A stretch of 64,000 nt of DNA, from positions 12,082,932 to 12,146,931 of the forward strand of contig NC_092679.1 in NCBI RefSeq assembly GCF_964355755.1, given 5' to 3'. Below the pieces are notes generated by a model, which saw only the letters and a list, made by a program, of their open reading frames with translations, searched no databases and was not told the DNA's origin. The translations under genes and the position numbers were made by a program. Numbering within the stretch: position 1 is the first letter of the stretch; each line of letters begins with the position of its first letter. Shown here in pieces: positions 4,074 to 54,400 of the stretch. This DNA comes from Antedon mediterranea. Lineage: Eukaryota; Echinodermata; Crinoidea; Comatulida; Antedonidae.

Positions 4074-4797
4074 AGGTATTGCTAAACACCGCAAACCCCG
4101 CAAACCTCGCAAACCTCCAAAAAAACATAGCAAACCCCACCGAACCAACATAAAACTGATTGAATCATGTAGTGTACAACCCACTGGGTATATCCATGTA
4201 AAAAGAATATTAAATTTCTACTGTTAACTACTTATTTTTGGGGTAAAACATCATTTTTTGGTCAAAAATGATTGCTAAACCCCGCAAACCTCCAAAAAAC
4301 CATAGCAAACCCGACCGAACCAACATAAAAGTGATTGAATAATGTAGTGTACGACCCACTGGGTATATAAATTATTAAATTTCTACTGTTAACTACTTTT
4401 TTGGGGATAAAACATCATTTTTTGGTTAAAAATTAGCCATCATTTTAGACCAAAAAATGATGTTTTACCCCAAAAATAAGTAGTTAACAGTAGAAATTTA
4501 ATATTTTTTTTACATGGATATACCCAGTGGGTTGTACACTACATGATTCAATCAGTTTTATGTTGGTTCGATGGGGTTTGCTATATTTTTTTGGAGGTTT
4601 GCAGGGTTTAGCAATCATTTTTGACCAAAAAATGATGTTTTACCCCAAAAATAATTAGTTAACAGTAAAAATGTATTATTTTTTTTACATGGATATACCC
4701 AGTGGGTTGTACACTACATGATTCAATCACTTTTATGTTGGTTCGATGGGGTTTACTATGTTTTTTTGGAGGTTTGCGGGGTTTGGCAATACCCCTA
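4074..4797. repeat. 0.72-kb palindrome of two repeat units per arm
   Basis: Two forward units (AAACCCCGCAAACC, ACTGGGTATATCCATG, AAACATCATTTTTTGG) are followed, from about 4437, by two reverse units. Arms about 360 bp, spacer a few tens of bases at most. A 64-codon ORF in the left arm (4033-4227) is a by-product of the CGCAAACC repeats. Confidence 0.88.
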
Positions 4798-4976
4798 AAG
4801 CTTGGTTCCCACTAGAACGTAACGCAAGGACGTAAACGCAACGCAAGTATTTTAACCAATGACAAGCGAAGTTATAGACAGTTAGCAATCACAAGCGAAT
4901 AAGCCATCGCTTGTGATTGGTCAATTCACTTGCGTTGCGTTACGTCCCTGTGTTGCGTCGCTAGTGGGAACCACGC
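4798..4976. mobile_element. Small palindromic MITE, copy 1
   Basis: Ends TTGGTTCCCACTAG and CTAGTGGGAACCA enclose ACGCAACGCAAG-type inverted blocks and a central CAATCACAAGCGA/TCGCTTGTGATTG hairpin. It abuts the 4074-4797 palindrome. Confidence 0.85.
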
Positions 4977-4979
4977 TTT

Positions 4980-8035: not shown

Positions 8036-11000
8036 TCATAAGCCATCATTGCTATTTCTATCCGATGACTTGCGGTCTGATGATCCATTGGGTGTCGCAA
8101 CAGCAGTGGCAGCAGCAGCTGAAAAAAATTAAATGTAAGGTTAGAATTTCACGCTAGATAATTTGTGAAAGTGACATAAGCAGTGACACTGAATGTGTTT
8201 ACCTCATTTTTAGTAATAGCAACATAATTGTAACATTTTAAAAATTGTTTTGGTTGATTTAAGGTGCTTTCACATGCCCTGATTTGGATTGGTGCCCTGA
8301 GAAAAATATCGTGGAAAATAAATAAAAAGAATAAAATTGTATGATTTAAAATCGGATGATTTTTTTCTTTCGTACAATCAGCAGTGAGCATTAACTTGAC
8401 ATGCTTGACAACGAATAACTGAATTTGCGCTCGATGTGAAAGCACATATGCGATATTTTTCTCAGGGTGTCGGACCGAATCCGGGCCAGATGAAATATGA
8501 AAATGTAAATAACTTAAAAAGGGATTTCGACATTATCATATAAATAAAGGCTATGCTGCAGGATATATTTTACCCTTTTTTTTTTTAATGTTTACCTTTT
8601 ATTCAATCTTTGGCCAACAAATCGATAGGTTGACCACATAAGGTGAATAAATGTCACATACCTTTGTTTTCTCTCTCTTTCCTTCGTAACTTCTTTCTCC
8701 GTCTATCAATGCTTGCAACTTCACTTTTGAGGCTCATGTAAATTTTACGCATTTCATTTAACTGATGTTGAATAATGGATATTCTTTCTTCTGGATCGTG
8801 AATATTTGTCAAGTCTATAAGAAAATGGAAATATTTTATTTATTGTTTCTGGACCAGAGACAATTATTATTAGTGTTCTCTATTCTTCTCATAATATAAG
8901 TTATTCAGGGGCTGATTCAAGTGGGAGCCTAGGCAGCCCCAACCCCTTTCTCTTTAAATTTAAAAAATTAAATTAAACTTATTTAATTTAATTATTTGTA
9001 TGCCATGGCACAAACCCCATTTCAAAACCTTTGATCCGCCACTGTTACTCATACTTAAAAACAAATATTTCCATCCATAAAATATGGTATACGCAGCTAA
9101 GCTCTTATTAAGCAGTAACTGGCCAAAATAAAATTAAGACTTGACTATACTTGTAAAACAAAAAATGTAACTGAAAACAATGAAAGAACACTGAGAATGA
9201 ATTTTTAATGTTCTCTCTGTAATTTGTTGGTTGCTTCGTTACTTTACAACTATGAAATTGATGATGTCATCAATTTATTTATACAGTATGCTAATGAACT
9301 TACCAACTCTAAAGTTGTACTTTGGTGTGCGTCCAGATCTGATTATAGGCCTTCCATTGTGATCTGTCGGTGTTTTGGGGACTACCTTTTCTGCTCTTGT
9401 TTTGTTATCATTGTTTGAGGTATCATCAGTGTCACTACTACTGTGTCTTATTGGTTCTTTAATGTGGCGTTTCTTTTTTTCATCGTGGCTGGAATGTTTA
9501 TGACTCCGTTTCTTTCTCTTGCTTGGTGTATCACCTGAAATGGTACGACGCCGCTTCTTGGAACTACCTGATCGCTTCTCTTGGCTGGTGCCATTCAGAC
9601 TGTCTGCGCTAGTATTTGAACTGACACTAGCATCGCAATGTGGTGACCGATTGCCAATGGGTTGTACATCAGTCACACCCGCTACATCAATTAATCCATC
9701 ACTATCACTTCTATTGCTTGGTTCATCATGGTGAACTTCCATATTCACTGATTGGTCAGCAGGAGATGATGGGTTTGGAGGTGAATTTTCTGGGGTAGTT
9801 GGAGGTGTAAGTGACTTGCACTTCTCTTGAAAAGCAGTACTAGGGTTGTAAATGTCCATTAAGGCTGCTGCACCCTCTTCCTCTTTTGAACGTGGCACTG
9901 ACATCTTCTTATATTCTTTACTTTCATCCTTGTCTTTAAAATCAACATTTTCTGTTTCTTTTGATCTTCGTTCTGATATACTCTTCGACCGTCTTCGCTT
10001 CCTAGATTTCTTGCCTTCCGATTTGCTTTCTTTCTTTGGTTTTTCGTCAATTTCAATCTTGCAAGACGGTGTTTTCTCTTCTTGCATGTCCTGTACACTT
10101 TCCAGATTTTCCTGATAACCACTAGTTGATTCTAATACTACAGTTGTGATGTTTTCTAGCGACTTTTCAACATTGTGGTCTTTTTTCTCCTTTTTACCTT
10201 TTCCTTCCTTCTTCTTTTTAATTTTTCCTTCCTTTTTCTCTTTCTTCTTTTCTTTACCCTTTGGTGTTGCTATTTCAACTGGTACATCTATATGAGGTTG
10301 TTCTGATTGCTCTTCCTCAACCACAGGAACTTCATTTGCAATGTTCTCCTGTTTAATTTCAACGGTATCTTTCTCAGGTTCTTCCATTTCATCTTTGCTT
10401 TCCTCATAATTTTTGTTTACTTGCTCCTTTTCAACTTCATTTTCCTCTATCTGCACCTTAATGTCTTCACTTTCTTTTACAGGTTCCTCCTCTTGTTGTT
10501 GATCTGCATCTTTAACTTCTTCAGTCTTTTCTCCTTCATCTTTAACAGAGATTGAACTTTCACTTTCTGAATCTAAATTGTGTTTAAAACATAAAATATA
10601 ATATTGTACTATTTTATTGAAATGTGATTAGTGTTATAAATGGAAAGACATTAGCAGATTCTATCAATATAATCAAGGATGACTTTATTTTTAGATTAAG
10701 GTAAGCTCAACATTTTAAATGGTGAACATTTGTCATATATATATATTTCGCTATCTTTTATTCAACAACAAGTATATACATAAAACAATTCATGGCAGTA
10801 TAAACTGAATTGCGAACTGAGTAGTTAAAAACATTATACAAAATATACAGAATTAGACAAAATGAAGATTAATACAATACAATACAATATATCATTAATA
10901 CAATACAATATATCATAGGATAGGATATCTTTTGCAGAGTTCTCACCACATTTTCTGGCTGGGTCAGCCTGTTTGGGATTTAAAAAATAGGTTCCCGACT

Positions 11001-14000: not shown

Positions 14001-17000
14001 GGTTTCTCCTCTTCTTCTTCAAGTTCAGTAATTGTTACCTGTTAGAAAAAACATAAATTATCATTATAAATTCCCTCTTTTTCAACGTAATCAACAATTT
14101 CTTCTTTTTCGTTGGTAGGAAATAACCATTTGGTGGTCTTGCATTTTTCAAATTACATGCAATCCACAAATAATATGGATTCTTCATGACTGATCATGTT
14201 GCTTCGATAATGAATGCCATGCTAAAATTAAATGTAAAACTACAAATGAGCACAAACAGTAAGTTACAGTGCATGATTGAGAAGTATAGCTTAATATTCA
14301 TGTGTTCACACATTGCCATGCTTTGTACAAATATTGTCATGGCCATAATAAGGTTAAAGTAATGTAATTGTTAAAAACTAGCTAATGTTTTCTGGTTGGG
14401 GTTTGTGAATAAATAGGTACTTTTTAACCCTTATAATTCATTACTACCTTCACCAGAATGGCGAGAGGTTATGAGGTTAATCGGGTGTTTATTTCTTTCT
14501 ATATTTGTTAGCAGGATTATGCAAAAAGTTATTGCCCGATTTTCAACAAATTTTTGGTGATGGTTTCATAGATGGATTTTCATATGCTTAGGCGGAGGTT
14601 TGCGCTAGTCCTAGTTTAATTAGTAAAAGACACTGTAAATAAAATACATACCCTTCTTTTTAGCATCGGAGGTTCTCGCTCAGTATCACTTTCTCCATCT
14701 TCATCTATTGTTCTTGTAGTGCGTGGTCTTATAGGAGAAAGTGTTGGACGTTCAAATGATGAGCGTCTTCTAGTTGTACGAGTTAATGGGCCAGGTAAAC
14801 CAGGCCCCAGTTTTCTATTGTATTCTTCAAATGCATGTAGATATCTAAAACACAAGAAATGAATTCATTCTACATCCAATAAATCCCAAAACATAATCCA
14901 CATGTATTTTAAGAGGCACTATATGTCAACAAATAATTATTAGTCCTCTCTCCATGACGGTTGTCACATAATGCTTTGTATTATTTACCTCCGCCAAGGA
15001 GGTATATGTAATCGGTAGCGTGTGTTTGTTTGTTTGTTAGCAGGATTACTCAAAAAGTAATTACAAGATCTTTACCAAAATGAATAGACAGATAGATATG
15101 TGGTCAAGGACCATTCCATTAAATTTTGGGACCATTTGGGACCACAGTCCCAATTCTGGACCACTTTTTAGTATACTTTTTTAGACCTGCTAGTGTTAAA
15201 AGATAGGACAGAATTTTTCAAAAGCCGGCGAGCAGTCTTAAAGTAACAAGTAAACTGAAATTGCATTTTCTCAAGAACTACTTGTCCAAAAAACTTCATT
15301 TTTGAAGAAGAGGCAAGAGTTATAATTTGTGATTTGTAATTTTAAAACATAATTTGATTTAATGTGCACGTTTTTTTGATGCGAGTAGTTTAAAAAAACT
15401 ATTTCTTTTCAAATTCACTCGTTTGATTTTCGCGTTGCTGTTCTATTGTTAGTCAACTGAAGCTATTGTTAATTGAAAGGCTTGTTACATAACCATTACA
15501 CCAAACTCGCATACACATGCTTGTAATGAAATTAGCCTAAATCACAAACAGCATTAAGACACACACAAATATATATATATATATTTTTTTTTACCGGAGA
15601 AATCTTATGTAGGAGAATTTTACAGTAGGCGGAGGTATGCCCTCTCGGAGTGGCTTTCTAGTTTTTTATTGTATTTATAAGTTTCATATGGACAGTTTGT
15701 CTGAAATAAAGTTGAATTGATTGAATTGATTGATTGATAGCATTGTGGGCCTGTAAATCTGTAAGCTTTTAAGGCACAATACAACTGAGTGTATCTATCT
15801 TTGATTGATTAACATCGTATTACATTTCTGTTCACTATTGCGTATATTGAGTGATTCTCATGGTATCTCTCATTCACTATACGTAATATTTAGTCTTTTA
15901 GTTAACTTACTTCATATAAGATGCTTTAATGTTATGATGACTGGAAGAGTTGATAACTGGTATACCCATTTTGAATGAGATCTCGCGCCACTTCTGCTGA
16001 TCAGTAACTTTGCGAAATCCACCAAGATCTTGTACTAACTTGAATAGTTTGAACAGGTTTAAGTCTTGATATCCAAGCACAGGTGGTTTATTGATAGGTG
16101 TTCCTATTAACAAGCAAACATAATAGAAATACAATAGTCAAAACCATGTCAGTTTAGTTATTTGGGCATGAGGGCGTGTGGCGCAGGGTGTTGGACGTTG
16201 GACTACTGATCGTGAGACCGAGGTTCGAATCCAACTCTCGCCGCATTGCTTGTATCCTTTGGCAAGATACTTTACTTACGTTTGCCTCTCTCCACCCAGG
16301 TGTATAAATGGGTACCCGGTTAGATCAAAACACAACTTTGCACTGATTACTAGCTACATTATGGGAGTATGTGTCCATACGTGTTTGATCCGAAAAATGA
16401 CTGGGGTAATAATGTTCAGCGCTTAGAGAAGCTTGCTTGTAGAGCGCTATATAAGAATGAACTATTATTATTATTATTATTAAAACCATGTGTCAGCTTA
16501 GTTATTTGGCCTTTTGTCAAAACATAAATTGAAATATTCTCATTTTCATTATCCCAAAAAGTGTATGTATATGTAAACATTTTTATCAGATTTCAGAAAC
16601 TTTAATTCAAAGAGTAATCATTCAATAAATCCTTACTTGTAATTTATATTTTAAATCATTAACATTTATTTCCAGAAAGAATTATTTACAGATGCCTAGG
16701 TAAATCAAAGTGAAGAAATTACATTTTTAGAAAATTATGTACGGAGAATAGATTATTTAAATTCTGGAAAACAACAGTAGCCATTGCTAAAATCCTAAAT
16801 ACGCCTTGGATATGTGTACCTAGCATACAAGAAATTACTGGGTTGGCATTATATTTGCTTATATTTTTGCTTAAGCTGAAATATTTAAGAAGTGCTTAAG
16901 CAAATAACTTAATCTTATTTATCAAACCGTCTTAGCAATGTCTTAGCAGAAAAATTGTCTTAGGTAAATTTTACTTTGCACATGCGCAAAATTAAACTCT

Positions 17001-28602: not shown

Positions 28603-29130
28603 TAGGCCAACCAGTGTGATGAATATTAATTATTAAATCTTAAATAATTATGGTAAATTTTACGATTTTTTTATTTATTAATTTCAGAAAAATTTCACCA
28701 TACATCTATTTTTACAATGGAACTGCATACAAACTGAGAAGACTACGATGATCAAAGTGCTTGATATCATCAAGTGCAGCTGACAGTATACAATACAGAT
28801 AATTATGAGACGTTAAAGTATGCATTGCAAATAGAGGATCCATTAATTCAAGATTCAGTTGTAAGTATATAAATTGACATTGTAAACTTCATCAGGGTTC
28901 TCACCAGAGCCGACTATAGTGCATTCACACTTACACAAATCACTCATTTGACCATCTGGATAGATGAGCGCTTACTGGCTAAAGAGTTTAAGGGACACCA
29001 GAGCATGAGCAGTCCAATGCAACTACCCAGCGTTGCTGGAGTGCTAAACCTTTGCCCACTGTATTACGCCACTGCCTGTAGATGTAAAATACTGCATACA
29101 TTATACAAGCTTAAAAATAAAGTAGTGAAA

Positions 29131-30166
29131 CTAGAAAGCCACTCCGAGAGTGCATACATCCGCCTACTGTAAAATTCTCCTACATAACATTTCTCCGGGA
29201 AAAAATATATATATTTGTGTGTGTCTTAATGCTGTTTGTGATTTAGGCTATTTTCACTACAAGCATAAGTATGCGAGTTTGGTGTACCGTAATGGTTATG
29301 TAACAAGCCTTTCAATTAACAATAGCTTCAGTTGACTAACAATAGAACAGCAACGCGAAAATCAAACGAGTGAATTTGAAAAGAAATAGGTTTTTTAAAT
29401 TACTCGCATCAAAAAAGGTGCACATTAAATCAAATTTTGTTTTAAAATTACAAATCACCAATTATAACTCTTGCCTCTTGTACAAAAATGAAGTTTTTTG
29501 GACAAGTAGTTCTCGAGAAAATGCAATTTCAGTTTACTTAATACTTTAAGACTGCTCGCCGGCTTTTGGAAAATTCTGTCCTATCTTAACACTAGCAGGT
29601 CTGAAAAGTATACTAAAAAGTGGTTCAGAATTGGGACCATGGTCCCAAATGGTCCCAAAATTTAATGGAATGGTCCTTGACCACATATCTATCTGTATAT
29701 TCATTTTGGTAAAATCTTGTAATTACTTTTTGAGTAATCCTGCTAACAAACAAGCGAGTGAGTGGCCGAGGGGTTAAGACAGTGGAACCGTAATTACGTA
29801 CAGTAGCCATAACATCGGCATGGGTTCGAGGCTCACTCGCTCCATGGTTCTGGTGGTAGAACGAGTCTTCTCGGATAAGGACTATAAACCGTAGGTCCAG
29901 TGTACAGTACACATAGCTCATGCGCACTTTAAAGAACCTAGTACATCTTTTGAGACGAGTGGGGGGTTACCCCGGTGTACTAGTCCACACAAACACAGCC
30001 ACTGTCACACACAGCCACTGTGCAAATTGGGACTGGACCGTTTTAGAGGTGTTTACCACCTGTTGGTCCAGATCCTTCACTAACTGAGTTAGTGAGAAGT
30101 CGAATAAATAAACAAACAAACAGACAAACAAACATCGATCGATTACATATACCTCCTTGGCGGAGG
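29131..30166. mobile_element. Repeat A with an inserted SINE
   Basis: Reverse-oriented copy of the 14988-15663 element (CTAGAAAGCCACTCCGAGAG to ACCTCCTTGGCGGAGGT). It is lengthened by about 360 bp because a tRNA-type SINE sits within it. Confidence 0.82.
29756..30118 (+). mobile_element. tRNA(Ser/Leu)-type SINE nested in another repeat
   Basis: Head GCGAGTGAGTGGCCGAGGGG pairs with GCTCACTCGC. The long variable region and GGGTTCGAGGC B-box are of class II tRNA type. The tail is AATAAATAAACAAACAAAC. It sits inside the AACAAACAGAC stretch of the 676-bp repeat at 29131-30166, whose length becomes normal once this insert is removed. Confidence 0.78.
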
Positions 30167-30504
30167 TAAATGAATGATAAAATAAATATACCACTCTGAA
30201 TGCAACATTTAGAGAACATTAGGAGATGGGATTACTATAGGATTTACTGTACTGTACAACTATAATATCTGCAACGTTCACCATGTTTCAAGTACGGCAG
30301 GGATGTAATTGTGCAAGGCCAGGTGGAGCCGCCCTATCTAAAAGCTTCCCGACCGGTGTAAAGCTAATTTCTGATCCGCCCACCCTAAATTATTTCGTTT
30401 CTTCGGTATATTCAACTTCAATTTATTTTCCACTGATTAATTCTAAATATAGTATCAGAACGTTCAGTCGATTGCATGCTAAACAAAAGATGTACCTAGA
30501 TTTT

Positions 30505-32108
30505 GTTCAATACATTTATACCTGGAACATCATTGATTCACATTCATATACACTGATGTTCAATACATTTATATCTGGAACATCATCGATTCACATTCAT
30601 ATACACTAATGTTCAATACATTTATATCTGGAACATCATCGATTCACATTCATATACACTGATGTTCAATACATTTATACCTGGAACATCATTGATTCAC
30701 ATTCATATACACAGATGTTCAATACATTTCTATCTGGAACATCATTGATTCACATTCATATACACTGATGTTCAATACATTATACCTGGAACATCATTGA
30801 TTCACATTCATATACACCGATGTTCAATACATTTCTATCTGGAACATCATTGATTCACATTCATATACACTGATGTTCAATACATTTATACCTGGAACAT
30901 CATTGATTCACATTCATATACACCGATGTTCAATACATTTCTATCTGGAACATCATTGAATCACATTCATATACACTGATGTTCAATACATTTATACCTG
31001 GAACATCATTGTGATTCACATTCATATACACAGATGTTCAATACATTTATATCTGGAACATCATTGATTCACATTCATATACACTGATGTTCAATACATT
31101 TATTCCTGGAACATCATTGATTCACATTCATATACACCGATGTTCAATACATTTATACCTGGAACATCATTGATTCACATTCATATACACCGATGTTCAA
31201 TACATTTATATCTGGAACATCATTGATTCACATTCATATACACTGATGTTCAATACATTTATACCTGGAACATCATTGATTCACATTCATATACACTGAT
31301 GTTCAATACATTTATACCTGGAACATCATTGATTCACATTCATATACACCGATGTTCAATACATTTATACCTGGAACATCATTGATTCACATTCATATAC
31401 ACCGATGTTCAATACATTTATACCTGGAACATCATTGATTCACATTCATATACACCGATGTTCAATACATTTATACCTGGAACATCATTGATTCACATTC
31501 ATATACACCGATGTTCAATACATTTATACCTGGAACATCATTGATTCACATTCATATACACCGATGTTCAATACATTTATACCTGGAACATCATTGATTC
31601 ACATTCATATACACCGATGTTCAATACATTTATACCTGGAACATCATTGATTCACATTCATATACACCGATGTTCAATACATTTATACCTGGAACATCAT
31701 TGATTCACATTCATATACACAGATGTTCAATACATTTATACCTGGAACATCATTGATTCACATTCATATACACCGATGTTCAATACATTTATACCTGGAA
31801 CATCATTGATTCACATTCATATGTACACCGATGTTCAATACATTTATACCTGGAACATCATTGATTCACATTCATATACACCGATGTTCAATACATTTAT
31901 ACCTGGAACATCATTGATTCACATTCATATACACCGATGTTCAATACATTTATACCTGGAACATCATTGATTCACATTCATATACACCGATGTTCAATAC
32001 ATTTATACCTGGAACATCATTGATTCATATACACCGATGTTCAATACATTTATACCTGGAACATCATTGATTCACATTCATATACACTAATGTTCAATAC
32101 ATTTATAT
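30505..32108. repeat. 53-bp minisatellite, about 30 copies
   Basis: Unit of 53 bp (TGTTCAATACATTTATACC, then GGAACATCATTGATTCAC, then ATTCATATACACC) measured at several places (for example 31141 to 31194). Variants include TATATCTGG and CTATCTGG, CACTGA versus CACCGA, and some units with small indels. Each unit carries GAACATC and GATGTTC, a 7-bp inverted pair. Short ORFs inside are by-products. Confidence 0.96.
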
Positions 32109-35709: not shown

Positions 35710-36009
35710 TGGATCTCCTGATTTTTTTCCCTGGCCGTATACTCGACGGGTAGCTTCCAGTAAGTTTTCGAAACTGTTCATGATTTAATTGAATAACACG
35801 GTATGGCGTTGGTTGTTGTCAATTCTCCATGACAACAACGTAATCTCGCGGGGTAAAGATGTCGCCTACAATTTTACGCTCAATCGTTGCATGCATGCTG
35901 TCCACCTCCATTTGTGTATGTTCCGCGACAAGATATTTTTGTGTTATTTTATTTTATTTTTTTTCCATCGCCAACTGCAGATATGCATTAGCGACAGCTG
36001 CATTGCGAT
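35710..36009 (-). pseudogene. Transposase-like relic, C-terminal part
   Basis: Minus strand reads YRNAAVANAYLQLAMEKK, then after a stop ITQKYLVAEHTQMEVDSMH, and later YPSSIRPGKK followed in another frame by KSGDPTV. The block HTQME-D-S-H-x-IERK followed by SSIRPG-K-GDP is characteristic of the same transposase-like family as the relic at 43290-43740. It is broken by stops and frameshifts. Its gene was cut in two by the adjacent transposon. Confidence 0.6.
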
Positions 36010-36890
36010 AGTCTGGGAGCCCAGAAGGTTTTAATTAGCAATTTGAGTACAAAAGGTTTGAGGTGTGGAGTGTGTAGATATGGTCTATGTGACCCAGAAA
36101 TGGCAATTCTTAAGTGACGGGTCCTGTTCAATTTTAGGGGGGAGCCACCCAAATGACCCCTAAAATTGAATTTAATTAGCATATCGAGTACATCGATCAA
36201 ACCAATCCTAAAATGTTCTCCTAACTATCAGGAATCAAGATCCATAATTCTTAAGTGACCATTCCTGTGCTAAATTAACTTAAGAACGCACTTAATTAGT
36301 GCTAATTAGACATTTAATTAGCATTTTGAGTACATCAACGAAATTCACATGACATATACTTATGAACATACTGATTAAGGATTCATCATTCTTAAGTTTG
36401 AAATCCGGGGCCAAATCCACTTAAGAATGGGTCAAAGGTTAAAATAATTAAAATTTAAATTTAATTAGCATATCGAGTACATCGACCAAACCAATTCTAA
36501 AATGTTCTCTGACCTATCAGGAACCAAGATCCATAATTCTTATGTGACCATTCCTGTGCTAAATTAACTTAAGAACGCACTTAATTAGTGCTAATTAGAC
36601 ATTTAATTAGCATTTTGAGTACATCAACGAAATTCACATGACATATACTTATGAACATACTGATTAAGGATTCATCATTCTTAAGTTTGAAATCCGGGGC
36701 CAAATCCACTTAAGAATGGGTCAAAGGTTAAAATAATTAAAATTCAAATTTAATTAGAATATTGACCAAACCAATTCTAAAATGTTCTCTGACCTATTAG
36801 AAACCAAGATCCATTCCTGTGCTAAATTAACTTAAGAATGCACTTAATTAGTGCTAATTAGACATTTAATTAACATTTTGAGAAATTATG
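36010..36890. repeat. Left inverted arm of 289-bp tandem units
   Basis: Anchor GATCC occurs at 36239, 36528 and 36808: spacing 289, then 280 because one copy has lost a short TAATTAGCATATCGAGTAC segment. Units are rich in CTTAAG and TAATTAGC motifs. The outermost ~170 bp is unique to the end and holds the terminal repeat and a short internal hairpin (CAATTTTAGGGGGGAG region). Confidence 0.9.
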
Positions 36891-37198
36891 AACATACTCA
36901 AAGAACATTAGTTCACTTAAGAATGGGTAAAATATCAAATAGAGTATCTCTGATATATTCAGATCCAAAACCAAATGTGATTTGTGGGCTGTCTGGAATT
37001 AGGACAGGTCCTTTGCATCATCATATTTTATCTTATTGTTTAAGTGAATGTCTCTGGAATATATCAGATACAGGAATTTGTCTCCATGGATACATCTATC
37101 TAGGCTTGGGTGTCCAGCAGGAATTCCATCCCCATGTGCTATTCCATTATTTCAAAATCATTGAACCAACATTACCATTTGCTGATTTTACTCTATAG
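36851..37198 (+). CDS. Possible small ORF upstream of the transposase
   Basis: An ORF of 115 codons occupies the unique DNA between the left arm and the transposase, ending 92 bp before its ATG and in a different frame. An internal methionine (MGKISNRVSLIYSD) would give about 90 residues. Composition includes several H, C and hydrophobic residues but no domain I recognise. It may be an accessory protein, a regulatory upstream ORF, or chance. Confidence 0.3.
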   Translation: MLIRHLINILRNYEHTQRTLVHLRMGKISNRVSLIYSDPKPNVICGLSGIRTGPLHHHILSYCLSECLWNISDTGICLHGYIYLGLGVQQEFHPHVLFHYFKIIEPTLPFADFTL

Positions 37199-37290
37199 TA
37201 TAGATTAGTAGAGTTAACACAACAGGATCATCTTTTCTCAGTATTATAATTGCTATATGTTTATGTTGTGCGTGAAGACATCTAATTGTA

Positions 37291-40200
37291 ATGGAAAGCT
37301 TTACGGACCCAGATCAGACTCTTGAAAGTAGTGCTGAAACTCAGATGAAATCGTCCAACGTTTGCATTCTCCACATTGAAAAGCCCAAGCAAAAGTCAAA
37401 GTGGGGAAATATCCTCTCGTTCAGTGATAAACATTGGAAAGCGGTTTTACTGGCAGCAGAAAGTAGACGTAAAAAGCGTAATTTTGTGGAATCTGTATAT
37501 CACAAAATTGTGCAAAAATTACCGACATCTCCTGACGAAAATGAAGGTTATCATGTGATGTGTTACAAGAATTTTACTGCTATACCGTCAGAAACTGCAT
37601 CCACGGATAAGGCACCACATACACACAAGTTAGGAAGCACTGCTGAGAGTCCACATTTACGTTCAGCTACACCCGAAAGCGATAGGTCGCTGTCATCAAC
37701 ATCTGGTATTTTCCCTCCTCAATGTATATTTTGTGGAAATGCAAGAAAACGCAAGAAAGGTCAGTATGAAGTAGCTGGTAGTTGTGAGACAATTGAAGCT
37801 GGTCAGAGCATCCATGAGGCAGCTTCTGCTTTAAATGATTCCAAACTGTTATCCAAAATAAGTGGTATTGACTTAGTAGCCAAAGAAGCAAAATATCACC
37901 ACTCTTGTAAAAGTGCATATTTGATGTCGGCCAAAAGGGTTTCAAGTCAGAGTGAATTGGATTCAAATGAGTCATCCAAACTAACCATGATACAAAATAT
38001 CCATAACTATGTAGAAAAAGCAATCATCTGCAACAAAAGACCTGAGCTTTTGACATCAGTGTATGCCAGATATACTGATATGTGTACACTTTCTGAAACA
38101 ACACCCATAAATAGTGCACAGAGTCTTATGCGTAATTTGATAAACAAATTTGGTAAGAAACTACGTTTCCACACAGAAACAAAGAAACTGGGAATTATTA
38201 TTTACAATTCTGACACTGCCGATAAATCTGTACGTGTTGCATATGACTATGCATCGGATGATGAACACATTGTTACCAAGGCAGCTTTTCTACTTCGTAA
38301 AAACATATTTGGCATTCAAAAGAAAGACCTTCCTGAAAATCCTACCCTGGATGATTTAAAGGAAGGGGATGCTTTTCCCCCCAAGTTGTTATCCACATTT
38401 TTCACTGCATTGTACAGCGGAGCAGAACAAACTAAGTGTTCTGAGCAGGTGAAGCGACGTGTTAAATCATCTTGTGATGATGCACTTTTCATTGTCAAAA
38501 GAGGTAAAGTGAAACCAGCAAAGCAAGTGGCATTGGGTATGGCTGTAAAGACTGTTACAGGTAGCAAAAAGTTAGTACAGGTTCTAAATAGGTTTGGACA
38601 TAGCCTAAATTACAACTGCCTTGAAGAACTTGAAACAAATACGGCTGAGAAAATACAAGAGAGGATGCTGGCATGCCCCATTGGAACCGTTAAACACATA
38701 CCAATGGGACTTGCATTTGATAATTTTGATGAAATGACTCAGACACTTTCGGGTGCCAACACACTTCATGACACAATGGGAATACTATACCAAAATATAT
38801 CAGACGAGCAAGAAACTAATGAAACAAATGTCACAGAAGGCCATTCCTGTGTAACTAACAAACAACAGAAAGGTAGAAAGCGATCACTAGCGCCACAGAT
38901 GTCTGCTCTAGAGCCATATCGTAAGAAACCAAAAATGACCGTATTTAACTACAATGTTACAGATATTTCTAGTCTCCCTGATGTCAGCGCAGTGGCATGG
39001 AATATGGACTTCCTTTGGGTGTTAAAACATGCCTTGAAAGAGAATTACATTCCTATGTGGGTCGGTTACAATGCTGCATCATATCAAGACAATTTGCCAA
39101 AACAGGCAGTTCTATATATGCCAAATTTGCAACAACCAATCACTAGGTTAGATGTCATACAAGAGACACTCTTGATAACCCAAAGATGCACTAATGAATG
39201 TGAGCAGAAATTCGGAATCGTGACTTACGATTTAAATGCAGCAAAGCCAGCTATGCAAATACAAGCAACAGAAAAACCAAGGTTTGATGACATATTTATC
39301 ATGTTAGGTGCTTTCCATGTGGAAATGGCCTTTTTTAAAGCTGTTGGAAAGCTTCTTTCTAATTCAGGAGGTCCTGATATGCTTACCAATACTGATGTGC
39401 TTGCTCCCGGGTCACTTAACGGTTTTCTAAGTGGAAAACATTTCAATAGATGTAAACGTTTACACCCCATATTGGCTCTTGCTTTTGAAATTCTACATTT
39501 TCGGGAATTCAGGAAAGACTATAGCAACAGAGAACAGCTAACGGAATTAACCAATGAACCAAGTCATGAAGAAGCCATCAACTCCGCTACATTTAGTCAT
39601 GCATGTACAGCATACAAACAGTTTGCAGATTTGACACGTTCGGGAGCACATGGATTCACTGCTCAATTTTGGCTTATGTACATTGACTACATCCATAGCT
39701 ATCATAACCTAGAGAGGTCAATCCGAACCAATAACATCAGTCTTTACATCTACTCTCTTACTCCCATTATTGGTCTGTTTTTTGCCACAAATCACATCAA
39801 CTATGCACGATGGTTAACAAAATTCCAACTCGATCTCGCCAATATTGATAACTCGCATCCTGGACTCCGGAGTATATTAGAGAAAGGTGCATTCAGTATC
39901 CGGCGTACAGACAATGCTTTTAGTCGAATACCAGTAGATCTGACACTTGAGCAAACAGTAAATGCCGATGCTGCTTCTAGACTTAGTGGAATAACATCTG
40001 CAACTAACAACTATGGTGCTCGTCTACGATGGATGATTACAAGATCCACCCGTGCGTCATTTGTTAGCATTGTTCATGAAATGGCAGGACTGCTTTCAAA
40101 AGACGACATTGCTTCAGAGATTAAACCTGCACGAATACATCGTGACAACCGGGATCTAACTGCTGTAATAAAACACATAGAGGATACACATAATCCTTTT

Positions 40201-41943
40201 GATAGAGTGATAGACACATCTACTAAACTATTTAATATCAACACAGGCAAAGCCGTCAGTACTGTGGTAAAGGAAAGCTTACTGAACATACCTCAATGCG
40301 GACAGTCTAGACATCAGGAGTTTGTACAGTCTTGTGTCAAAGATCCTAGCAGATTTGAGCAAAGAATAAAGAAGACGCCAATAAAGACATTTGCATATGA
40401 TTGTGCCAGCAACAAGAGCACAAAAGATAAACGCATAGCAGAGCTCAAGTGTAGCAGAGATCTAATGGGTCGACTAGTGTTGTTAGCGACCAAACGCAAC
40501 CTTGACATGCCATATATATTTAGCTACCCCTTGACGCCTGTTCCGCTTTCTCTTTGTAATGCAGATGGAACTATGACCAAAACACCAAAAAGTTCACTGC
40601 TTGGTGTACTTGAGTCAAAAGTGAAAGATGGGAATATTAATCCTCAACATCCATGTGCCTACATAATAGATGGCCAATTCTTATTACATACGTTACCACC
40701 ATACATTCCACCAAACTATGGAGGACTAGCCAGAAGTGTGTTGATTCAGGCTTTATCAGCAAACACACAAACCAAGGAAGTCCACCTGCTCTTTGATGAT
40801 TATCCACAACCATCACTGAAAGATTTTGAGAGAGGTAGAAGAGGAGTTGAAGAAAGAGAGTATCTAATAACAGGACCAGAACAAGTTAGACCAAAACATA
40901 TCAATGATGCCTTGAAATCCAGATCATTTAAATCTCAATTGCCTCAATTTCTCGCAAAAGAATGGCAGGACCAGACTTATGCTGACATATTCCGGGATAA
41001 AAAGGTGTTTCTTGATGTACCTGGAGAGTGCTACCTTTTTCGAGTTGTTGATGGTGTAGTTACTCGAGAAGATGTTGCAGCCCTCAGAAGCAACCATGAA
41101 GAAGCAGATACCAAAATATGTCTGCATGCTAAGTTTATTGAAAGTATTGGTCTGAGAGGAGATATAGTCATACGAGCATCGGACACCGACATAGCAGTTA
41201 TAATGTTGTATCATTGCAATAAGTTTGCCTCTAAATTGTGGATGGATGTTGGTATATCTGCTAAAAATAGTCGTAGATACATCTGTTTGTCGAGTATACA
41301 TCAGATACTTGGTTTGCAGTTATGTTTATCACTACCAGCATTTCATGCTTTTACTGGGTGTGATTATACATCTTCATTTGTACGGAAAGGCAAAGTGCAA
41401 CCATTTGCTAAACTGTTGAAGAATATTGAAGCCCAAAAAGCATTCAATGAAATTACATGTGAAGGTTCATTAAGTGGAGATGCACAAACTACTCTTCAAA
41501 AGTTTACCGCTCAAGTATATGGTGCCAAAAACTCATATAAAGGCACACTGAATGAATTCCGGTACAGCATATTTGAACGAGGCTATAGTCCAAGTGCAAC
41601 GTCAAAGAATCCACTTGAGAAACTGAAAGGCATTAATGCAAGTGTCATTCCACCATGCGAAGCTGAACTTAATTGCCATATTAAACGTGTATCTTTCATT
41701 GCTAAAATGTGGGCAGATGCTGACCAGACAACAATCCAACAACATCCAATTATTTCAAATGGCTGGGACTTTCAAAGTGGTCTTTATCAACCTATTTGGC
41801 ATGAAGGGGCTCAGCTTCCAGATTCATTAATTCCAGAGAATAAAGACATAGATTCAGATTCAGATGATGATGACGAGGAGGATGATATGACTGTATCATC
41901 AGATGATGAATCTGCATCAGAGAATGAAGATGATCAACAGTAA
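37291..41943 (+). CDS. 1,550-aa transposase fused to a FEN1/XPG-like nuclease
   Basis: Intronless and intact. N terminus: two similar modules that look metal-binding, C25-x2-H28 with YH88-x2-C91, and C145-x2-C148 with C165 and YHHSC206. Core: AFDNFDEM (D477), VTYDLN (D646), LGAFH (H676), NHINYARW (834-841) and LEQTVNAD (E887). These match the layout of a family of uncharacterised metazoan transposon proteins and are candidate RNase-H-fold catalytic residues. C terminus: IIDGQ (D1127), FDDYPQPSLKDFERGRR (1168-1184), NHEEADTK (E1270/E1271/D1273), ASDTD (D1298/D1300) and TGCDYTS (D1358). Their order matches the acidic metal-binding positions of FEN1/XPG nucleases. An acidic tail (1520-1550) ends the protein. 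Inference: transposition enzyme with its own flap/structure-specific nuclease. The start is the first ATG after an in-frame stop-rich leader. Confidence 0.88.
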   Translation: MESFTDPDQTLESSAETQMKSSNVCILHIEKPKQKSKWGNILSFSDKHWKAVLLAAESRRKKRNFVESVYHKIVQKLPTSPDENEGYHVMCYKNFTAIPSETASTDKAPHTHKLGSTAESPHLRSATPESDRSLSSTSGIFPPQCIFCGNARKRKKGQYEVAGSCETIEAGQSIHEAASALNDSKLLSKISGIDLVAKEAKYHHSCKSAYLMSAKRVSSQSELDSNESSKLTMIQNIHNYVEKAIICNKRPELLTSVYARYTDMCTLSETTPINSAQSLMRNLINKFGKKLRFHTETKKLGIIIYNSDTADKSVRVAYDYASDDEHIVTKAAFLLRKNIFGIQKKDLPENPTLDDLKEGDAFPPKLLSTFFTALYSGAEQTKCSEQVKRRVKSSCDDALFIVKRGKVKPAKQVALGMAVKTVTGSKKLVQVLNRFGHSLNYNCLEELETNTAEKIQERMLACPIGTVKHIPMGLAFDNFDEMTQTLSGANTLHDTMGILYQNISDEQETNETNVTEGHSCVTNKQQKGRKRSLAPQMSALEPYRKKPKMTVFNYNVTDISSLPDVSAVAWNMDFLWVLKHALKENYIPMWVGYNAASYQDNLPKQAVLYMPNLQQPITRLDVIQETLLITQRCTNECEQKFGIVTYDLNAAKPAMQIQATEKPRFDDIFIMLGAFHVEMAFFKAVGKLLSNSGGPDMLTNTDVLAPGSLNGFLSGKHFNRCKRLHPILALAFEILHFREFRKDYSNREQLTELTNEPSHEEAINSATFSHACTAYKQFADLTRSGAHGFTAQFWLMYIDYIHSYHNLERSIRTNNISLYIYSLTPIIGLFFATNHINYARWLTKFQLDLANIDNSHPGLRSILEKGAFSIRRTDNAFSRIPVDLTLEQTVNADAASRLSGITSATNNYGARLRWMITRSTRASFVSIVHEMAGLLSKDDIASEIKPARIHRDNRDLTAVIKHIEDTHNPFDRVIDTSTKLFNINTGKAVSTVVKESLLNIPQCGQSRHQEFVQSCVKDPSRFEQRIKKTPIKTFAYDCASNKSTKDKRIAELKCSRDLMGRLVLLATKRNLDMPYIFSYPLTPVPLSLCNADGTMTKTPKSSLLGVLESKVKDGNINPQHPCAYIIDGQFLLHTLPPYIPPNYGGLARSVLIQALSANTQTKEVHLLFDDYPQPSLKDFERGRRGVEEREYLITGPEQVRPKHINDALKSRSFKSQLPQFLAKEWQDQTYADIFRDKKVFLDVPGECYLFRVVDGVVTREDVAALRSNHEEADTKICLHAKFIESIGLRGDIVIRASDTDIAVIMLYHCNKFASKLWMDVGISAKNSRRYICLSSIHQILGLQLCLSLPAFHAFTGCDYTSSFVRKGKVQPFAKLLKNIEAQKAFNEITCEGSLSGDAQTTLQKFTAQVYGAKNSYKGTLNEFRYSIFERGYSPSATSKNPLEKLKGINASVIPPCEAELNCHIKRVSFIAKMWADADQTTIQQHPIISNGWDFQSGLYQPIWHEGAQLPDSLIPENKDIDSDSDDDDEEDDMTVSSDDESASENEDDQQ

Positions 41944-42097
41944 TGTTATTACAATATCGACACTAGAAGAAAAAAACTGTTGTTGTGGATTTTATCTGAA
42001 GTTTATGTAGACTTTTATGATAGATTTTTTTACATTTTGACATTTAGTGAAATATTCATTTAGAGAAATATTCTTAAGTGGATTTTGTGATATACCA

Positions 42098-42103
42098 AAT
42101 AAA
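42098..42103 (+). terminator. Polyadenylation signal of the transposase gene
   Basis: AATAAA lies 155 bp after the transposase stop and about 30 bp before the right arm begins, where a transcript of the intronless ORF would be expected to end. Confidence 0.55.
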
Positions 42104-42129
42104 GAAACCGTATTCAAACAATCCAGTCA

Positions 42130-43289
42130 AGTGTAATTAAGTGCGTTCTTAAGTTAATTTAGCACAGGAATGGTCACTTAAGAACTATGGATCTTGGTTC
42201 CTGATAGATCAGAGAACATTTTAGAATTGGTTTGGTCGATGTACTCGATATGCTAATTAAATTTGAATTTTAATTATTTTAACCTTTGACCCATTCTTAA
42301 GTGGATTTGGCCCCGGATTTCAAACTTAAGAATGATGAATCCTTAATCAGAATGTTCATAAGTATATGCCATGTGAATTTCGTTGATGTACTCAAAATGC
42401 TAATTAAATGTCTAATTAGCACTAATTAAGTGCGTTCTTAAGTTAATTTAGCACAGGAATGGTCACTTAAGAATTATGGATCTTGGTTCCTGATAGGTCA
42501 GAGAACATTTTAGAATTGGTTTGGTCGATGTACTCGATATGCTAATTAAATTTAAATTTTAATTATTTTAACCTTTGACCCATTCTTAAGTGGATTTGGC
42601 CCCGGATTTCAAACTTAAGAATGATGAATCCTTAATCAGAATGTTCATAAGTATATGCCATGTGAATTTCGTTGATGTACTCAAAATGCTAATTAAATGT
42701 CTAATTAGCACTAATTAAGTGCGTTCTTAAGTTAATTTAGCACAGGAATGGTCACTTAAGAATTATGGATCTTGGTTCCTGATAGGTCAGAGAACATTTT
42801 AGAATTGGTTTGGTCGATGTACTCGATATGCTAATTAAATTTAAATTTTAATTATTTTAACCTTTGACCCATTCTTAAGTGGATTTTGCCCCGGATTTCA
42901 AACTTAAGAATGATGAATCCTTAATCAGTATGTTCATAAGTATATGTCATGTGAATTTCGTTGATGTACTCAAAATGCTAATTAAATGTCTAATTAGCAC
43001 TAATTAAGTGCGTTCTTAAGTTAATTTAGCACAGGAATGGTCACTTAAGAATTATGGATCTTGATTCCTGATAGTTAGGAGAACATTTTAGGATTGGTTT
43101 GATCGATGTACTCGATATGCTAATTAAATTCAATTTTAGGGGTCATTTGGGTGGCTCCCCCCTAAAATTGAACAGGACCCGTCACTTAAGAATTGCCATT
43201 TCTGGGTCCCATAGACCATATCTACACACTCCACACCTCAAACCTTTTGTACTCAAATTGCTAATTAAAACCTTCTGGGCTCCCAGACT
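42130..43289. repeat. Right inverted arm of 289-bp tandem units
   Basis: Anchor ATCTTGGTT (or ATCTTGATT) occurs at 42191, 42480, 42769 and 43058, exactly 289 bp apart, in reverse orientation to the left arm. Between-copy differences are few, so the array expanded recently or is kept homogeneous. One more unit is present than in the left arm. Confidence 0.92.
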
Positions 43290-43740
43290 ATTGGGTTTTC
43301 CTCAATTACTTTGTTGAAGTGAGGGTATTGTGCACTTGTAGTTTTGTTTTGTAGTACATGGTACTGGCTTGTCAGAGGACATAACAGACCAGCCTGTAAA
43401 TCCATGGTCTACACAGACACCTCATCACTTGCACTATCTTGCACCTCAGACTTTTCTTTTCTGGCTTAGTTTTTACTCAAAATATGAGCCTCATGCTTAG
43501 CAGCATCAATTATGTTCCCGTGTTTTGCACTAATGCAAACATCGCACTGGTCCTTCCTCGGTATGAAAACAGACAGGTTTTGTTCATGAAACATTTGAGT
43601 AAATCGTGTTTGGCACACGGCTCGATACCCACCATTCTCTGCAGAAGATTTATACTCTGGGTAAAAATATTTTTTATTTCTGTAAGTGGAACTGTTTCTA
43701 CAATAATTTGATGGTACTGACGGTAGACCATTTAGCCACT
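43290..43740 (-). pseudogene. Transposase-like relic, upstream part
   Basis: Minus-strand reading shows TMDLQAGLLCP and then, after a frame change, TMYYKTKLQVHN. I recognise this pair from a widespread family of uncharacterised invertebrate transposase-like proteins (pattern TMDLQ..LLCP...YYKTKL..HN). Stops and frameshifts break the frame. The C-terminal part of the same type of protein lies on the other side of the 7.3-kb element in the same strand and order. A short intact stretch (MVYRQYHQIIVETV onward, 43510-43731) may be its more N-terminal portion. Confidence 0.55.
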
Positions 43741-43747
43741 TCCTAAT

Positions 43748-43924
43748 GCGTGGTTCCCACTAGCGACGCAACGCAAGGACGTAACGCAACGCAAGTGAAT
43801 TGACCAATCACAAGCAATGGCTTATTCGCTTGTGATTGCTAACTGTCTATAACTTCGCTTGTCATTGGTTAAAACGCTTGCGTTGCGTTTACGTCCTTGC
43901 GTTACGTTCTAGTGGGAACCAAGC
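43748..43924. mobile_element. Small palindromic MITE, copy 2
   Basis: Reverse-oriented, highly similar copy of the element at 4798-4976, about 460 bp from the right end of the 7.3-kb transposon. Confidence 0.87.
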
Positions 43925-44048
43925 TTAAGGTAATCCACGTCTCTCGTTTCTACATACGCAATCTTTCCTATAGATAAAAACCAAAGCAGGGTAAGTATTT
44001 GAATAATAGTGAAAAGATGCTATTTGCATAGCATTATACATTGTTTGA

Positions 44049-47531: not shown

Positions 47532-48445
47532 TCAAACATTTGTGGCACTAGGATCATAAAATGAAGCTGAAAAGGGGATACTAACAGTACCCTGTAAGTT
47601 ACCAGATATATCATTGACTCCAGAGTCGTTACTTGGACATCCCTCTCCAAATGAAGAACTGCTTCGTGAAGTAAGTTGTCGTAGTGAATTCAGTGCAGAC
47701 ATCTGGTATTCATTGTCGCTGACAGGATCCACAGTAGGCGAGACATCTGACATAGAGATTATGCTAATGTCGGGATTCGGTTTGTCGTCAATATTGGTCT
47801 TTTTTGCCAATATTTGTCGCTTTTTATCAGCTGATATTTTGTTCATGTGAAAGAACCAGTCTGGATCTGAATGAACTTTCTTCATCTCTTCAATGGCCTT
47901 CTTCAGTTCAACACCTGCATCACTATATGTATCCCACTCCTGTAGTGCTTTGCAATAGTGATCTTGTGTTGCATTGTATTTCTCCAGGTCATTGACACGA
48001 TAGAACATTTTTTCTACATGATCCATCAACCGATACTTTGGTAAAAACCTTAATGGTTGCGGTATGTGTTCTTCAGACGAATAGCTCATGTACGACACAA
48101 TGAATTTCTGTGAGTTTTTCAGAAATTCAGGTGTTTGAAGCCGCATGAACGGTAAAAATAAATCCCCCATATTATCCTCGCAAACATCAATTTCTATTTG
48201 CCGGGACATGGCCCTCCATTTAATTTGAGTTCCTTGAGAGCACAATATGATAACTTTATCAGCTTCTTCGCATTCTCGGTTCATCCATTCATTTACTCCG
48301 ATGCCAATTTCATTGGAACTCCAAAGGGCAGTGCGCACATTTAACTTGCAGAGGTTTTTAAGAAACACACAGAGTTTCAGAACGACCTCATTGTGATATT
48401 CATGATCATAGGAGTGGATTAAAAACACGCGTCTCATATAAATTT
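47532..48445 (-). CDS. SEFIR-domain terminal exon
   Basis: A 914-bp last exon begins after a TTACAG acceptor and ends at TGA (47532-47534). SEFIR box 1 (VFLIHSYD) and box 2 (EEADKVIILCSQG) are both present, with the intervening LNVRTALWS strand and EIGIGVNEWM helix. About 120 residues of lysine-, then serine/aspartate-rich tail follow, ending FYDPSATNV. No TIR-domain BB-loop proline is seen, supporting SEFIR over TIR. Confidence 0.92.
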
Positions 48446-51400: not shown

Positions 51401-54400
51401 AAGCTACCAATCACAGCAGGAATAACATAATCTTTAAATAAATATTTAAATTACAAATTACCATAGCAAACAACATAAATAAATACTAGAAATTGCGAAG
51501 TGCAAGTGAAAGCTGTGAGCAGATCTATAGTCAAGCCTACAGAAATAATTGATTATTAACCAATTATTTTTTAAGCGATTATTTTTGGATGATGGATGAC
51601 ATGATTTTTAAAAAGTGATTACCAGATAACATTTTCAGTTGCAACACAGTCAATTCTGTGATTTGTGTAGGGACTTGTTAAACAACTCCCTGATTTGTGG
51701 TACTTAGGAAAAATAGATTATTTTTATTTTTTCAGCAGAAACAGACCCTAAGACTACCTTTACCAACAAATGCTTTGTAATAATTATAGTAGTTTCCCTA
51801 AAAAAAACAACAAATCTTAAACATTTATAAATTTGACAGTTATAAACAAATTCTAAACCGCACAGAGACTGAAAATTATTTTTTACAAAATGGTTATATT
51901 TTCTTCGTCAGGTTTAATGAGTGAACTTTAGAGAGAGAATTTTAAAATGTCCAGAAAAGTCAGTGAAATGAAAGTAAGGTGAGTTGCGTTTAGTTGCTAA
52001 GAGCGCTTATGTCGATACAGTTAAGTTGAATGATTTACATAGAACTGTGTGTCGACATAAAATATCTTGATACCAAAAAATGCTTTGTAAATTATAGTAG
52101 TTTACTTTACCATTTGGTTCACCATCTAGTTTCTCTAAAAATAAAAAAAAAATAAATCTTAAAAAACATTTATAAATTTGACAGATATAAACAAATTATA
52201 AACGACACAGTGAATGAAAATGAATTTTCACAAAATAAAATGCAGTGTATTTTGTAGTATTCCAATATAATATTTTACAAGGTTTTTCTAAATAGACAAA
52301 ATTAATTTTGGCATAAATTTCATTACGTATTTGCTTGTATATTCTTTTATTCTCATTACAATGTTGGCCTATACATTCATGTTTTATCCTTTGCAGTTCC
52401 GTGTATTTGTTTAATGTTAACCATTTGAAGACATGGCCCATATCCCATACAGGGTAATTTACTGTCCAAGGACGCAGGCCCGTAATTGCAGAAAGATACA
52501 TTTACAAAAATGTATTTTGCATTTTTCCTAAACCTATTAAAAATACCTTATTTAGCTTCAGTCACTTGGGGTAGAAACCTTGCGTATTCAAAGGGTTAAT
52601 GCACAATGCAGTGTATTCTGTAGTATTCCAAAATACTAAATGTAACTTTAGGCCTACCTGAGCATATTCCATTATCAATCTCAAAGCCATCTTCACAGGA
52701 ACAAACAGGCTCACCATCTTCAACAACGTTACATAGCATATTGTCTCCTCCACAAGGGTCTGGAACATTTTCACAAGGGCGTTCTTCAAATCAAACCAAT
52801 ATTTATAAAGATAGAATTATTAAAATTTCATTTAGCATAATAAGCATTGTACAAATCATTATCTACTATAACACACCTGATTGTATCTTGCTATTTGATT
52901 GGTTAACATTACGTGACATTCATTATTTGTACTAAGATGAACATTACTAATAAACATTCAACTTTTTATACATTTTTGGAAACACGCAAGGTTGTTGACT
53001 GATTCCTGTTTGAAAATCAACCTTAAATGTGCGCTGGTACAGTTGAACCTCTGTGAGTGGCCACCTCCTTTACAGCCTCACTTTCAAAAGCCTATTTGTT
53101 CTTCCCATCTAATTAGTGCATTTTGTACCTCCCGTAAGCGTTTCTCCTACCCTAAGCGGCCACTTTTTTAAAAAAATTATTCACATTTTTTTGTATGATA
53201 AATTACCTCCCGTAAGTGGCCACCCAAAAAATTTACGATTTGCGATTTTACTAAAAATTTCTGTGAAGAACATTCCTGTGTTTTTTAGATGATGAGAAAA
53301 CTAACTGACTATTTTTATGTGATAAAAGTATTTAAAATTTGTCTGAAAATCATAAATAATACTAAACCACCGGATTATAAACAATAAAATACAATTAGCT
53401 GGAGAATTTAGAGGCCATTTCCATAGTCAATACATGATTTTGGCTCTCTATTGGCAGAACCTCCTGTAAACGGTCACCTCTCGTAAGCGGCCACTTTTCC
53501 CGGTCCTGAAGGTGGCCGCTTACGGGAGATTCAACTGTATAACTGTTGGAGCGCTGACTTTTGAATGCCTAGCTGTCATGCTCTACCTGCTTGTTCTATA
53601 CTTTTTCATCATACACTAAACTCCCCTACTCTCCTCCAGACTCTTTTCCAACATACTCTATATATACTCTTCCATCATACTCTATACACTTCCATCATAC
53701 TCTATACACTTACATCATGCTCTATACACTTCCAACATCCTCTATACACTTCCATCATACTCTATACACTTCCATCATACTCTATACACTTCCATCATGC
53801 TCTATACACTTCCATCATACTCTATACACTTACATCATGCTCTATACACTTCCAACATACTCTATACACTTCCATCATACTCTATACACTTACATCATGC
53901 TCTATACACTTCCAACATCCTCTATACACTTCCATCATACTCTATACACTTCCATCATGCTCTATACACTTCCATCATACTCTATACACTTACATCATGC
54001 TCTATACACTTCCATCATACTCTATACACTTCCATCATACTCTATACACTTACATCATGCTCTATACACTTCCATCATACTCTATACACTTACATCATGC
54101 TCTATACACTTCCATTATGCTCTATTCTCTTCCATCATACTCTATACACTTCCATCATGCTCTATACACTTCCATCATGCTCTATACTCTTCCATCATGC
54201 TCTATACTCTATGTAACTCTTCTATCATATGCCCTATAGACCATGTTTCACTATGCTTTATACTCATCTTTTATACTTATTCTCTTCTGTTTGCCCTAAA
54301 TGGTATATACAGTAATACTCTTAATATAAATGATGAACCTGTGTACCTTTAACATAAACATCACTTCTTTTTATCGTACAGTCAACCGCATGATTTGTTG

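Follow-up and report, generated by a model that had tools for sequence, protein, structure and literature searches.

A nuclease of the DNA-repair type is present in some cut-and-paste transposons; its purpose there is the question raised by a 64-kb stretch of the genome of the crinoid Antedon mediterranea (contig NC_092679.1, positions 12,082,932 to 12,146,931 of the forward strand), which was analyzed as a whole and is called the window below. At positions 36009 to 43290 on the plus strand, it holds a 7,282-bp element with the tips TAGTCTGGGAGCCCAGAAGG...CCTTCTGGGCTCCCAGACTA, and inside this lies an open reading frame (ORF) of 1,550 amino acids (37291 to 41943, plus strand). The initial annotation, made from the letters of the window alone, had described an uninterrupted 1,550-codon frame between inverted arms and had read its product as a transposase-FEN1/XPG nuclease fusion; the frame is indeed uninterrupted, and the arms (inverted repeats at 36008 to 36765 and 42534 to 43291) are 99% identical. 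Predicted structures, together with the conservation of catalytic sites, agree with this description and support the protein being a DDE transposase fused to a FEN1/XPG-type nuclease. We consider it highly probable that the element is an autonomous, recently mobile DNA transposon of a known kind, AcademX, an assignment set by the published description and not by sequence comparison with Academ references.

The N-terminal region of the protein contains a probable zinc module (residues 145 to 206, with C145, C148, H203, and C206; 37723 to 37908, plus strand), which is recognized by its conservation. The RNase H-like DDE core, delimited by predicted structure and conservation, spans residues 477 to 887 (D480, D647, and E887; 38719 to 39951, plus strand) and has a helical insertion before E887. 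In its predicted core and in the insertion between the second D and the E, it resembles the Drosophila P-element transposase (PDB 6pe2 and 6p5a; domain layout as given in PMC8230255) and hAT Hermes. It differs from both in its sequence (7 to 8% identity), in the fused nuclease, and in the target site duplication (TSD), which is 3 bp long in the window family and its siblings. P and hAT elements have 8-bp TSDs. According to PMC9587614, the P/hAT-type motif between the second D and the E is C/DxxH, whereas the window protein has GxxH (GAFH at residues 673 to 676). Among 39 sequences, neither G673 nor H676 varies, and H676 is present in 119 of 120. Having a DDE core with a helical insertion but no C/DxxH, the transposase is taken to work like a P or hAT element without being classed as one.

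The nuclease domain, of the FEN/EXO1 type, occupies residues 1099 to 1486 (40585 to 41748, plus strand), and its seven acids (D1127, D1169, E1271, D1273, D1298, D1300, and D1358) are all found in the window protein, as they are in 79 to 80 of the 85 homologues that cover all ten catalytic sites. The fold, the seven acids, K1177, and R1184 are shared with the FEN1/EXO1/XPG 5'-nucleases; we take these residues to correspond to those of FEN1. The domain differs from those enzymes in its sequence, with 12 to 14% identity in the EXO1, FEN1, and XPG rows and 10 to 14% across the wider FEN/Rad2 rows, and it has no free N terminus because it is embedded in the C-terminal part of the transposase. Of the checks suggested by the initial annotation, structure prediction matched both the DDE core and the FEN-type fold; the profile search of the nuclease region gave no Pfam XPG match to the window protein up to an E value of 10, in a search where HMMER filters drop most weak matches.

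A search of the genome (354 Mb in 18 contigs; at least 34 scored protein matches, with 30 of 714 candidates scored) revealed on contig 11 a second copy, full-length and with its 1,550-codon frame open, whose tips are identical to those of the window copy and whose flanks are unrelated. The flanks point to transposition and rule out segmental duplication as the origin of this copy. Between the two copies there are 32 mismatches and four indels, one indel being a whole 289-bp arm unit; in the ORFs, 9 changes are synonymous and 12 nonsynonymous, giving a ratio of nonsynonymous to synonymous rates of about 0.37, a rough value from small numbers. These findings support the window element being intact, autonomous, and recently mobile, as had been anticipated, and at least one further full-length intact copy with the same ends thus exists.

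Ends were sought in 10 of the 34 matches (10-kb stretches), in copy 2, and in three decayed copies (L011, L012, and L013), among which one end was found, in L011. Comparison with copy 2 and six sibling loci set the true tips as TAG...CTA, and the window element therefore runs from 36009 to 43290, on the joint basis of inverted repeats, tip search, and sibling comparison; the well-preserved paired ends first described stand, and the limits of 36010 and 43289 are replaced. With up to 3 mismatches allowed, the window contains the 19-bp tip AGTCTGGGAGCCCAGAAGG only at the two element ends, once at each, and shuffled sequence does not contain it. The six siblings, which belong to other families, carry exact 3-bp repeats (ACA, CCA, CTA, CAA, AAT, and CAT) beside TAG...CTA, and copy 2 carries AAA, so that a 3-bp TSD is found at 7 of 7 resolved insertions (chance of about 0.02 each). 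In L016, L017, L019, and L020, the boundary at TAG came from the inverted-repeat search itself, and in L021, L022, and copy 2 it was shifted 1 to 3 bases in or out by hand with the TSD in view; the count excludes L014, L015, L018, and L023, whose ends are unresolved (L018 and L023 have flanking sequence in common). L016 (C8) and L017 (C5) form one family, both being 7,742 bp long with open 1,235-amino-acid frames and differing 3-bp TSDs, and this is a second recently mobile family in the genome.

In PMC10045372, AcademX is the nuclease-bearing lineage of the Academ superfamily, with TSDs of 3 to 4 bp against 9 to 10 bp in AcademH, and a link between TSD length and the encoded enzymes is suggested. 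As described there, AcademX supports the Academ assignment made initially (no reference sequence was compared): a DDE transposase and an XPG-type nuclease occur within one element in animal hosts, and the 3-bp TSDs of copy 2 and the six siblings fall in the 3- to 4-bp class at the family level. The window copy departs from it in having no TSD and in its arms of about 0.9 to 1.2 kb built of 289-bp units, whereas the terminal inverted repeats (TIRs) of L016, L017, L019, and L020 measure only about 16 to 20 bp. Academ elements are reported to be abundant and amplified in bivalves (PMC10294476), and one Academ-1 gain is recorded in Daphnia mutation-accumulation lines (PMC8594854).

Each arm opens with an outer part of about 152 bp and continues inward with tandem units of 289 bp. 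The left arm (36009 to 36882, plus strand) has 2.6 such units (36161 to 36882), the innermost of which is degenerate, and the right arm (42134 to 43290, minus strand) has 3.5 (42134 to 43138). A 14-bp perfect inverted repeat with a 16-nucleotide spacer (36127 to 36170, plus strand) lies in the outer part of the left arm. Over the 730 outermost positions, the arms are identical at 725 (5 differences). When the two arms are compared, 1 site separates their outer units and 3 sites their second units, whereas within one arm the first unit departs from the second at 9 sites (left) or 11 (right). This indicates that homogenization between the arms came later than the divergence of the first units from the second; in the right arm, the second and third units are identical. 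The arms, 2,092 bp in total, hold CTTAAG at 25 sites, against 8 in the remaining 61,908 bp of the window; the mean expected under a Markov model of the arms is 0.63, and the 25 sites are not independent, the units being repeats. Judged from sequence, these are candidate binding sites. The 289-bp unit is itself a diverged dimer (best lags of 141 and 148, 42% identity, compared with no more than 38% among 200 shuffles), and an arm period of about 145 bp or its double is common to three families with GCCCAGA tips, namely, the window element, L021 (periods of 145 and 292; arms at 985 to 1970 and 8286 to 9356 of the locus), and L022 (142 to 165; 7924 to 8476). Their unit sequences differ, and one idea is that the shared period reflects nucleosome length.

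The insertion site of the window copy reads CGA | TTG, with no repeat; a 2-bp AT repeat considered as its TSD was dropped after the siblings gave the TAG...CTA tips. Both flanks derive from the decayed transposase of another transposon on the minus strand, with its first part to the right (43291 to 43747), its continuation to the left (35720 to 36008), and about 46 bp absent between them. Its relatives are P0124 to P0158, and P0131 has a DUF7869 match slightly under the cut-off. In 29 of 34 testable relatives (P0152 and P0156 among them having weak right-hand scores), the gap between the flanks corresponds to exactly 16 residues, the 16th being N in all 29; the other five have gaps of 60, 60, 11, 0, and 6, and 1 of the 35 had no room. 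An AAT codon for this N would account for the T retained on the left flank. With one base kept per side, the loss at the insertion point amounts to 46 of 48 bp, an estimate derived from these protein relatives and not from an empty site in DNA. One of two short palindromic repeats that are 96% identical (4794 to 4979 and 43745 to 43930) adjoins the relic.

What, then, might the nuclease do? In the mechanism that we tentatively favor, at somewhat less than even confidence, the N-terminal Cys/His modules would bind repeated sites in the arms, and the P-element/hAT-like DDE domain would cut at the TAG tips and link the 3' ends to target sites spaced by 3 bp. Fill-in of the 3-nucleotide gaps would displace the 5' ends that are still unjoined, producing short flaps, which the fused FEN/EXO1-like nuclease would trim, leaving ligatable nicks and a 3-bp TSD. 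Flap trimming is preferred because it joins the enzyme class, the short TSD, and the independence from arm length; published support is indirect and consists of the TSD lengths of AcademX and AcademH and their suggested link to the encoded enzymes (PMC10045372). Excess trimming or resection would cause loss of target DNA without a TSD, and this outcome is proposed for the window copy. The wider claim that the AcademX 5'-nuclease processes the target-side junction and thereby determines whether a clean 3-bp duplication forms or target DNA is lost, with the window copy over-resected, is doubtful. Among the results listed by our literature search, no paper tested an Academ nuclease.

At the window site, the 46-bp gap may quite possibly predate the insertion as a deletion within the relic, or have arisen next to the element afterwards, in either case unrelated to nuclease action: the relic is decayed and lacks about 30 further residues near 43327, and a one-sided adjacent deletion after normal insertion would give the same picture. 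However, the protein of the relatives stops no more than one base short of either element end, and an independent older deletion there would be a coincidence. Results against the nuclease being needed come from the homologues. Eight with changed nuclease acids were placed in a quick tree of 115 rows, and seven (P0084, P0092, P0095, P0096, P0107, P0109, and P0110) form a clade (SH-aLRT, 100), with P0061 outside it and changed at one site only. All seven have lost D1298 and D1358, and other acids variably; they nevertheless retain the nuclease domain, and the DDE triad is kept in the 4 of 4 members that cover it. At matched transposase identity, nuclease similarity is 0.381 in clade pairs (12 pairs) against 0.418 in other pairs and 0.415 (7 pairs) against 0.470, and it is about equal in the third identity bin (2 clade pairs), with standard deviations of about 0.04 in this comparison; this hints weakly that the clade nuclease may be under relaxed constraint. 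The clade would suit a domain that serves mainly as a DNA-binding or structural module with dispensable catalysis, a reading that is unlikely given the 79 to 80 of 85 homologues with all seven acids.

The initial annotation had the nuclease process flaps or hairpins that arise when the long inverted arms are excised or re-replicated, a reading that can be extended to cruciforms. We regard this, too, as having a low probability: despite their short TIRs, L016, L017, L019, and L020 encode the DDE triad and all seven nuclease acids, and the nuclease is therefore not tied to long arms. Copy 2, L014, and L015 likewise encode both sets; L018 and L023 have DD- with the seven acids, L022, whose 5' part is cut, has --E with the seven acids, and the longest frame of L021 stops before the nuclease. 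An XRN-like identity for the domain, with 5'-3' exonuclease activity on RNA or resected ends in place of flap cutting, is very unlikely.

The genome thus offers an intact two-copy family, long- and short-ended nuclease-encoding siblings, exact 3-bp TSD readouts, and one deletion target; with the degenerate-nuclease clade added, the role of the nuclease becomes testable by single residue changes. If junction processing by the nuclease is true, the nuclease-dead clade is a natural control in which altered junctions are expected. The predicted P-element/hAT-like core is, moreover, a structural lead for the transposase. Two further homologues, P0022 and P0077, are filed under metagenome-assembled genomes of Candidatus Thiodiazotropha; they probably come from bivalve host DNA that was assigned to the symbiont bin because a scan of the prokaryote contigs showed no relative.

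Elsewhere in the window, long-ORF sequence is scarce, and an ORF on the minus strand (47535 to 48437) has a SEFIR domain (E value of 1.7e-31); both features mark the DNA as animal. A short-period minisatellite at 53646 to 54207 keeps long plus-strand frames open. A 53-bp tandem array of about 30 copies lies at 30504 to 32107, and an inverted pair about 14 kb apart (15030 to 15664 and 29128 to 29753, 93% identical) could represent the ends of another element or two copies.
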